Assembly: GCF_038502225.1 (NCBI RefSeq)
Contig: NW_027196904.1
Location: 1-64,000 of the forward strand
Reading direction: 5' to 3'
DNA: 64,000 nt
Source of the DNA: Cherax quadricarinatus
Lineage: Eukaryota > Arthropoda > Malacostraca > Decapoda > Parastacidae
Part shown: positions 42,278-43,359 of the stretch, in pieces
Layout: each line of letters opens with the position of its first letter
Position numbering within the stretch: the first letter of the stretch is position 1
Translations under genes and position numbers: made by a program
Notes under the pieces: model-generated
Seen by the model: only the letters and a program-made list of their open reading frames with translations
Databases searched by the model: none
What the model was told of the DNA's origin: nothing

Positions 42278-42290
42278 AGCTCTTTTCTTG
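42278..42290. repeat. Target-site duplication, left copy
   Basis: AGCTCTTTTCTTG, repeated exactly at 43347-43359. Removing the sequence between them plus one copy restores one uninterrupted Penelope frame through this point. Confidence 0.85.
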
Positions 42291-42322
42291 TTAGGTAAGA
42301 CACATATGCAACAGTTAGGTAT

Positions 42323-42371
42323 CTTTATTTCGAAACGTTTCGCCTACACAGTAGGCTTCTTCAGTCGAGTA
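42323..42371 (-). ncRNA. Type I hammerhead-like ribozyme motif, monomer 1
   Basis: Same sequence as the motif at 43231-43279 but on the minus strand: core CTGAAGA, stem II GCCTAC-TGT-GTAGGC, then GAAACGTT. Confidence 0.65.
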
Positions 42372-42742
42372 CAGAAAAGTTGATAGAAGCAGAAGAGACT
42401 AGAAGACGATGTAATCAGTCCATCACCCTTAAAGTTTTGAGGTGGTCAGTCCCTCAGTCTGGAGAAGAGCATTGTTCCAAAGTTTGAAACAATATGGAGT
42501 TGAAGTGACAGGATGGAGCCTTATATAGCGCCAGGAGGTGAGACAGGTCACTAGTAGAACGTAGATGTTGGGAGGTCAGGTCCCTCTCAAATCCAGCCGC
42601 TCTCACTAGTAGAGGTAGTCGAAGTTGATTCCAGGTCTGTACCAAGATACCCTTGTGTTGCAGTGTCTGACAGATTGAACATTAAAATGGTATAAAATAC
42701 CGACAGATTGTTAGGTAAGACACATATGCAACAGTTAGCTAT

Positions 42743-42791
42743 CTTTATTTCGAAACGTTTCGCCTACACAGTAGGCTTCTTCAGTCGAGTA
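42743..42791 (-). ncRNA. Type I hammerhead-like ribozyme motif, monomer 2
   Basis: Exactly 420 bp to the right of the first minus-strand motif and identical in core and stems. Confidence 0.65.
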
Positions 42792-43073
42792 CAGAAAAGT
42801 TGATAGAAGCAGAAGAGACTAGAAGACGATGTAATCAGTCAATCACCCTTAAAGTTTTGAGGTGGTCAGTCCCTCAGTCTGGAGAAGAGCATTGTTCCAA
42901 AGTTTGAAATACCATTTTAATGTTCAATCTGTCAGACACTGCAACACAAGGGTATCTTGGTACAGACCTGGAATCAACTTCAACTACCTCTACTAGTGAG
43001 AGCGGCTGGATTTGAGAGGGACCTGACCTCCCAACATCTACGTTCTACTAGTGACCTGTCTCACCTCCTGGCG

Positions 43074-43083
43074 CTATATAAGG
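43074..43083 (+). promoter_or_regulatory. TATA box in the inverted monomer
   Basis: CTATATAAGG followed by CTCC. The second family has TTTATAAGCTCC at 44077-44088, so TATAAG(G)CTCC is conserved although the flanks differ. It lies about 150 bp before the hammerhead-like motif. Confidence 0.55.
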
Positions 43084-43230
43084 CTCCATCCTGTCACTTC
43101 AACTCCATATTGTTTCAAACTTTGGAACAATGCTCTTCTCCAGACTGAGGGACTGACCACCTCAAAACTTTAAGGGTGATGGACTGATTACATCGTCTTC
43201 TAGTCTCTTCTGCTTCTATCAACTTTTCTG

Positions 43231-43279
43231 TACTCGACTGAAGAAGCCTACTGTGTAGGCGAAACGTTTCGAAATAAAG
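43231..43279 (+). ncRNA. Type I hammerhead-like ribozyme motif, inverted monomer
   Basis: TCGA pairs with TCGA as stem I around core CTGAAGA (position 7 is free to vary). One extra A follows, then stem II of six perfect pairs closed by TGT, then GAA and the self-complementary ACGT where stem III would be, with cleavage predicted after the following U. A stem III without a loop can form only between two molecules; small Penelope-associated hammerheads of this design are known and act as dimers. The extra A before stem II departs from the textbook consensus. Confidence 0.65.
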
Positions 43280-43346
43280 ATACCTAACTGTTGCATATGT
43301 GTCTTACCTAACAATCTGTCGGTATTTTATACAATTTTAATGTTCA

Positions 43347-43359
43347 AGCTCTTTTCTTG
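43347..43359. repeat. Target-site duplication, right copy
   Basis: Exact repeat of the 13 bp at 42278-42290, followed by the rest of the Penelope reading frame on the minus strand. Confidence 0.85.

Follow-up and report, generated by a model that had tools for sequence, protein, structure and literature searches.

The block at positions 42278-43359 of the window, which is the whole 64,000-nucleotide stretch analyzed here (bases 1-64000 of contig C1978, in an assembly of 3.95 Gb and 7,334 contigs), is very probably one insertion of a non-autonomous Penelope-like element (PLE) that lacks an ORF and has kept a promoter, a hammerhead-like motif, two reverse-transcription (RT) start sites separated by a 33-nt tail, and the conserved leader found ahead of the ORF in an intact PLE. 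Its structure, together with that of related copies, suggests that the templates were linear transcripts, copied from both nicked strands of the target, and not the circular RNA of a retrozyme.

Layout of the insertion and its target site

The initial annotation had described 1,056 bp of 420-bp monomers, one full and one partial in direct orientation and then one inverted, bracketed by an exact 13-bp duplication, and both the coordinates and the duplication were reproduced. The duplication, AGCTCTTTTCTTG, occupies 42278-42290 and 43347-43359, with 1,056 bp in between. Unit positions were numbered s1-s420 along the sense strand (the reverse complement of window 42288-42707); on the plus strand, unit mapping resolves the block at 42288-43350 into s420>1, s420>219, s15>420, and s1>36. 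Unit 1 (42288-42707, minus strand, s420>1), antisense on the plus strand, has its outer end at s420, here called start site A, and the last 3 bases of the left duplication copy double as unit sequence. Unit 2 (42708-42909, minus strand, s420>219) is partial (202 nt, 99%) and stops about 6 nt before the likely transcript start at s213. It is followed by the inverted, sense arm (42909-43314, plus strand, s15>420); over 406 nt, this arm shows 100% complementarity to unit 1, which makes the insertion look young. The block closes with a PLE-type tail (43315-43350, plus strand, s1>32-36), whose outer end lies at start site B and whose final 4 bases overlap the right duplication copy. A start-site motif, CAATCTGTC, lies at site A (43312-43320, plus strand, s418 to s6), and its second copy (s31-39, site B) is the point at which the right end of the window insertion formed. 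The TATA box TATATAAG (s181-188) of the sense arm lies at 43075-43082 (plus strand), and that of unit 1 at 42520-42527 (minus strand). A minimal hammerhead-like motif (CTGAAGA core, stem II, and GAAACGTT) lies at 43238-43268 on the plus strand, with predicted cleavage after 43268, and recurs on the minus strand at 42334-42364 and 42754-42784; motif and TATA box are thus carried by the minus strand of both direct copies and, in the inverted one, by the plus strand. The view that this is a mobile, non-coding element that was inserted as a unit is supported.

The insertion interrupts a PLE fragment on the minus strand, the GIY-YIG part of which lies at 41756-42283; the frame continues beyond the insertion at 43360-43405 (minus strand; approximately aa 610-624 in the frame of L051, a relative in the same genome with an 801-aa open frame). 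The reported continuity of the PLE frame outside the duplication was upheld, as the flanks plus one duplication copy read ...FFIKDCKKRALQIINSPR..., and Pfam detected GIY-YIG in the rejoined host frame. Pfam also detected RVT_1 and GIY-YIG in L051, the frame of which is uninterrupted across the site where the window insertion sits. Window 43406-43449 is a 44-nt inverted copy of the host PLE 3' region (41701-41744, 89%), so the interrupted PLE fragment may have been inserted head to head as well. Three insertions fall within a few codons of one another in PLE frames, in the stretch that separates the RT part from the endonuclease part, namely that in the window (approximately aa 625-631 in L051 numbering), L022 1367-1922, and perhaps L024 1470-1952; this cluster, which rests on three cases, may reflect chance or a target preference.

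Copies elsewhere in the genome

When a 45-nt unit-to-unit junction was searched genome-wide with up to 3 mismatches, 30,469 sites were found, and the same pattern reversed, as a control, occurred 0 times. Spacings of 401-403 bp were common among the listed junction sites, which marks the 420-bp unit as one length variant. All of the first 100 junctions listed are on contig C1; they fell into 49 loci, of which 33 held one junction each and 13 held a tandem pair (same-strand junctions 380-430 bp apart). The family comprises non-coding tandem units within the range of approximately 150-450 bp known from retrozymes (420 bp, the 401-403 bp spacings, and a 371-bp sister family), the tandem pair being present in only 13 of these 49 listed loci.

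Two samples of insertions were examined. Sample 1 comprised 39 insertions drawn from the best-scoring matches to the window unit (40 were scored of 1,843 first-look candidates). Sample 2 comprised 20 of the first 21 single-junction loci listed (the locus at 4095154 was omitted) and is, by this choice, biased away from tandem copies. L062 was dropped from counts, as it has the unit layout of L063 with the identical duplication inverted, and the two were taken as one duplicated insertion. The junction of an antisense unit with a following sense unit was present in 33 of 39 sample-1 loci (the window included) and 17 of 18 sample-2 loci (L062 and L065 omitted), and the structure in the window is thus neither chance nor merely local. 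As a control for the target duplications, mismatched flanks scored at least 8 in 2 of 59 trials.

Such recurrence also bears on whether the inverted repeat could be an artefact of assembly, which we regard as scarcely credible: the window does lie on a small contig of 74.5 kb, but the identical structure occurs with different target duplications on large contigs.

Outer ends of the insertions

Outer ends were classed as site A (non-tail, s414-420) or site B (tail, s28-46). Among the 40 insertions with a target duplication, 37 had one A end and one B end (24 of 26 in sample 1; 13 of 14 in sample 2, with L062 dropped), and none had two ends alike. A tail of the PLE kind, approximately 30-40 bp long at a single end beside inverted pLTR-like repeats, was accordingly seen in these 37 of 40. 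The exceptions with a duplication were L003 (419/261), L037 (377/34, a single sense arm), and L059 (287/32), and L036, without a duplication, had two B ends. The 18 loci (13 and 5) without a detected duplication were excluded from the pairing count; one of them, L009, had shown a 13-bp duplication and A/B ends in an earlier mapping and was later merged with a neighbouring piece. When exact duplications from both samples were considered (L062 included), 22 of 33 were 12-13 bp long. The two start sites carry an identical motif, CAATCTGTC, placed exactly at s31 and at s418, and its CAA is where the insertion ends lie.

The sister family of 371-bp units was represented by 10 mapped clusters among the loci at hand. 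The two clusters with a 13-bp duplication, L032 and L038, showed the same A/B pairing as the 420-bp family; L055 (9-bp match, fragmentary) did not follow it, and no duplication was found in 7 of the 10. L038 407-2088 and L032 3149-4302 both consist of 371-bp tandem units arranged head-to-head, each with a 13-bp target duplication. A further copy of this sister hammerhead family lies in the window at 43769-44198, inside a frame that is LINE-like by eye, with its tail end to the left; no target duplication was found around it.

The paired outer ends also weigh heavily against the possibility that the copies are pLTR debris, that is, complete PLEs that lost their bodies after insertion and so represent no separate element. 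The parts of the unit are indeed those of PLE termini, and solo pLTRs are known in rotifers (PMC3846280). However, target duplications lie directly at both unit ends in 37 of 40 insertions, the arms of those insertions meet without a long stretch between them (save in L050), and there are 30,469 junction sites; we consider debris quite improbable.

Inner arm ends and the inferred promoter

Inner arm ends fell at s210-219 in 7 of 66 cases in sample 1 (1.6 expected, P 0.001) and in 13 of 34 in sample 2 (0.8 expected, P 5e-13), where the P values count both ends of a junction as independent; counted by junction, the cluster appears in 6 of 33 and 9 of 17, respectively. This cluster had been recorded before sample 2 was drawn. 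One of the seven in sample 1 (the second end of L004) rests on a 24-nt match that is missing from stricter mapping, and L065, which is mixed with other repeats, was omitted from the arm count (its arms end at 188 and 164, beyond the limits of the cluster). Altogether, 20 of 100 inner ends lie at s212-219, which is 31-38 nt downstream of the first base of TATATAAG (s181), or about where a TATA-driven transcript would be expected to begin. In the window, the putative transcript start region defined by the family's inner arm ends (s209-219, with s213 the commonest end) corresponds to 43103-43113 on the plus strand.

If hammerhead cleavage set the ends of the template, as in a retrozyme, inner ends would be expected at the predicted cleavage site (s374/375). 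Within s373-379, there were 0 of 66 such ends in sample 1 and 2 of 34 in sample 2 (both at s376), with no clear cluster, compared with the counts at s210-219 above. The location of inner ends at the transcript start, and not at the predicted cleavage site, favours a linear template, and a linear transcript copied to its own 5' end is the simplest reading. Ends at unit position 50, a candidate set of cleavage-site ends, were shown by remapping to be search artefacts, and inner ends at s1-3 are probably in part an artefact of mapping to a single linear unit.

The hammerhead-like motif

In the motif, the CTGAAGA core is accompanied by a stem II of 6 bp, by GAAA, and, beside the predicted cleavage site, by a stem I of 4 bp; there is no stem III loop. 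Both the TATA box and the hammerhead-like motif that had been assigned to the monomer were found, but Rfam reported no hammerhead, either in the whole window at the gathering threshold or in 41000-45000 at E values up to 10. Without an Rfam match, with a 4-bp stem I and with no stem III loop, the motif differs from the canonical type I hammerhead of retrozymes; minimal PLE hammerheads lacking a stem III loop are described in PMC7761336 and PMC6155905. Stem I varies in sequence yet can pair over 3-4 bp in four families (420, 371, PLE A, and PLE B). When dimers were folded, stem II was kept in the 420 unit and a catalytic hammerhead fold was not obtained. A GGTAT/ATACC hairpin suggested by alignment was missing from the lowest-energy fold of the 420 tail fragment and was discarded.

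Core positions 3 and 8 (in the numbering also used in PMC11167929) were read by eye from a motif listing (L001-L051) that includes a few strings that are plainly not hammerheads; by this reading, both ORF-less types (420 and 371) have C/G, and PLE A and PLE B have U/A. Exceptions were U/G in L011 and A/A in the window's own PLE copy. There is thus an apparent exchange of a C3-G8 core for a U3-A8 core between the ORF-less families and the PLE A/B families. In PMC11167929, the hammerhead of the Anolis PLE PAc cleaved only with protein and was dispensable for insertion in vitro. The motif of the present family is probably an inherited PLE part.

Relation to autonomous PLEs

Aligned with the 5' repeat of the intact L051 PLE, the unit is collinear through the hammerhead region, AATAAA, TTGCA..TGTGTC, the two start sites with the TGTCGGT tail between them, and a leader common to both, AATCTGTCrGACACyGCAACA; it therefore has its RT-start and leader region in common with a same-genome PLE that encodes RT and GIY-YIG. 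The leader carries a paired difference, CAG..CTG in the units versus CGG..CCG in PLE A. In the PLE, an ATG directly follows the leader (ATAATGG), and it is absent there in the unit. Collinear but without the ATG or the protein, the unit looks like a PLE minus its ORF and was taken as non-autonomous. The unit itself encodes no RT plus GIY-YIG ORF, and in the loci searched, PLE coding matches near units were confined to flanking or interrupted DNA.

A plausible source of enzyme is plentiful, given that the window GIY-YIG frame had 54,876 first-look candidates in the genome and that the 150 scored were at least 94% identical; the PLE A leader plus ATG was found at 4,003 places (up to 3 mismatches). 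An autonomous PLE carrying a unit nearly identical to this one was not found, and the three leads fetched (L052-L054) were without a PLE ORF. The CTGTCAGACACTGCAACNNNATG sites (3,177) were considered as ORF starts of an autonomous partner and rejected, as the 3 fetched matched units and showed no PLE ORF.

PLE sequence flanked sample-1 insertions on both sides in 5 of 39 and on at least one side in 7 of 39. The background PLE coverage was 3,487 of 109,532 bases (3.2%) in sample-1 flanks more than 400 bp away, so that insertion into PLE DNA in sample 1 was more frequent than the local PLE share (5/39 versus 3.2%). In sample 2, PLE matches were found at 2 of 20 loci, L056 (on both sides of the insertion) and L070 (abutting).

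At L050 4202-6896 (G000:C4:18817000-18825000), a 1.8-kb foreign segment lies between the two arms of the insertion. It contains a 550-aa open frame with CCHC-like knuckles that is LINE ORF1-like by eye and has no Pfam match. The whole insertion, with the segment, lies inside one 13-bp target duplication, so the segment was probably captured during insertion.

Unit variation and the retrozyme alternative

The initial annotation had seen in the block the organization of a retrozyme. In its full form, this explanation holds that monomers cut from tandem transcripts by the hammerhead are circularized and reverse-transcribed round the circle by PLE proteins, and several observations are in keeping with it: the hammerhead-like core has pairable stems, unit size and tandems resemble published 150-450 bp repeats (PMC7229834), and ends near the cleavage site occur in L060 and L073 (376) and in L037 (377). 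Moreover, the units of a single insertion resemble one another more closely than they do those of other insertions (divergence of 1.05% versus 1.90%), and allele mixing within an insertion was below the random expectation at 4 of 6 common variant sites, with mixed insertions numbering 1 of 19 at s77 (9.4 expected), 5 of 21 at s108 (11.5), 2 of 22 at s115 (6.8), and 1 of 24 at s185 (6.6). Low mixing is, however, also as expected with one source RNA. At s91 and s311, mixing was at chance level, and mixed alleles at s108 (L012, L016, and L018) and mixed unit lengths (L037) show that a single circular monomer was not the template of all insertions. When these points are taken with the inner ends at the transcript start, the scarcity of ends at s373-379, the lack of an Rfam hammerhead, and the single junction in 33 of 49 listed loci, a true metazoan retrozyme is an unlikely explanation. 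What stands of the retrozyme reading is the similarity of parts; what does not is the mechanism, given the inner ends at the transcript start, the minimal motif, and the minority of tandems.

L048 2241-3518 has a 31-nt deletion that is common to both arms and absent from the other units of that insertion, which suggests that both cDNAs came from one RNA, or one from the other.

Discussion

The following sequence of events would account for the non-autonomous PLE insertion favoured here. The TATA box would drive a transcript starting near s213, as the arm ends imply. A PLE RT/endonuclease, presumably supplied in trans, would nick both target strands approximately 11-15 bp apart, as is evident from the duplications. 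Each nicked strand would then prime cDNA synthesis on the RNA, presumably with site A (s420) used by one strand and site B (s33) by the other; at both sites, the ends are observed at the motif CAA^TCTGTC. Both cDNAs would run to the RNA 5' end and be joined head to head, leaving the tail on one side only; the structure is that observed, and the joining is postulated. A tandem source locus would yield arms longer than one unit, as in the window. Alternatively, self-priming on an antisense template, a route put forward in PMC3846280 for other PLEs, could have produced the inverted pair. Counting against the two-strand explanation are the in vitro results in PMC11167929, in which no start-site difference between strands is described, versus the strict pairing seen here, as well as the failure to find a near-identical autonomous PLE and the pairing exceptions L003, L037, L059, L036, and L055.

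The likeness of the monomer arrangement to PLE repeats, pointed out in the initial annotation, proved well founded: two end types, tail, and target duplications all match published PLE insertions (PMC3846280, PMC11167929). By analogy with those insertions, the unit is most likely moved by PLE proteins. We give an even chance to the broader proposal that PLE integration uses two RNA start signals from one duplicated motif (CAATCTGTC), one per nicked strand, and that ORF-less units keeping this signal pair, the promoter, and the hammerhead form a large PLE-powered, SINE-like class that could plausibly have linked PLEs and retrozymes in evolution.

With ORF-less junctions numbering in the tens of thousands, the question of how the two ends of a PLE insertion are made can be answered statistically. 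Among the copies studied, one site is used per end, copying starts at the duplicated motif, and templates often end at the putative promoter start. The ORF-less units are natural, small PLE templates for biochemistry, and the data suggest that hammerhead-bearing non-coding PLEs need not move as circles. To published PLE work, the present data add how strict the pairing is and at which motif it occurs, the template end, and the high-copy ORF-less family, no published counterpart of which was found in the open-licence literature.

Several known systems resemble this family in part. In the PLEs of Adineta vaga, a 31-bp tail is optionally present on one inverted pLTR, target duplications are 8-10 bp, and the repeat (pLTR) sequences suffice in trans, as described in PMC3846280. 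For PAc, the 2024 in vitro work in PMC11167929 describes a pair of neighbouring RT start sites that flank the tail and match the ends of genomic copies; both strands were extended. Like these canonical endonuclease-bearing PLEs (pLTR-ORF-pLTR plus an inverted pLTR), the present family has a TATA promoter, a hammerhead-like motif, two adjacent RT start sites, a tail of approximately 31-33 nt at one end, a head-to-head inverted repeat, a short target duplication, partial tandems, and foreign sequence captured between repeats (here, L050); unlike them, it has no ORF, a unit of 371-420 bp, and strict pairing of one A with one B end. Metazoan non-LTR retrozymes, for which PLEs have already been proposed as movers (PMC7229834, PMC7761336), are alike in being small non-coding units with a type I-like hammerhead, possible tandems, target duplications, and co-existence with PLEs. 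The present family differs from these, as they are described there, in its minimal hammerhead-like motif without a stem III loop or Rfam match, in its fold-back copies, and in template 5' ends that lie at the putative promoter start and not at the predicted cleavage site. In the mobilization of an NRPS gene in trans by Pen3a pLTRs in A. vaga (PMC3846280), pLTRs alone likewise suffice for integration and foreign DNA lies between them, but those were single events, whereas tens of thousands of unit junctions are present here. Among these systems, the family is best filed as a non-autonomous PLE that is retrozyme-like in parts but has neither a canonical hammerhead nor ends defined by cleavage.
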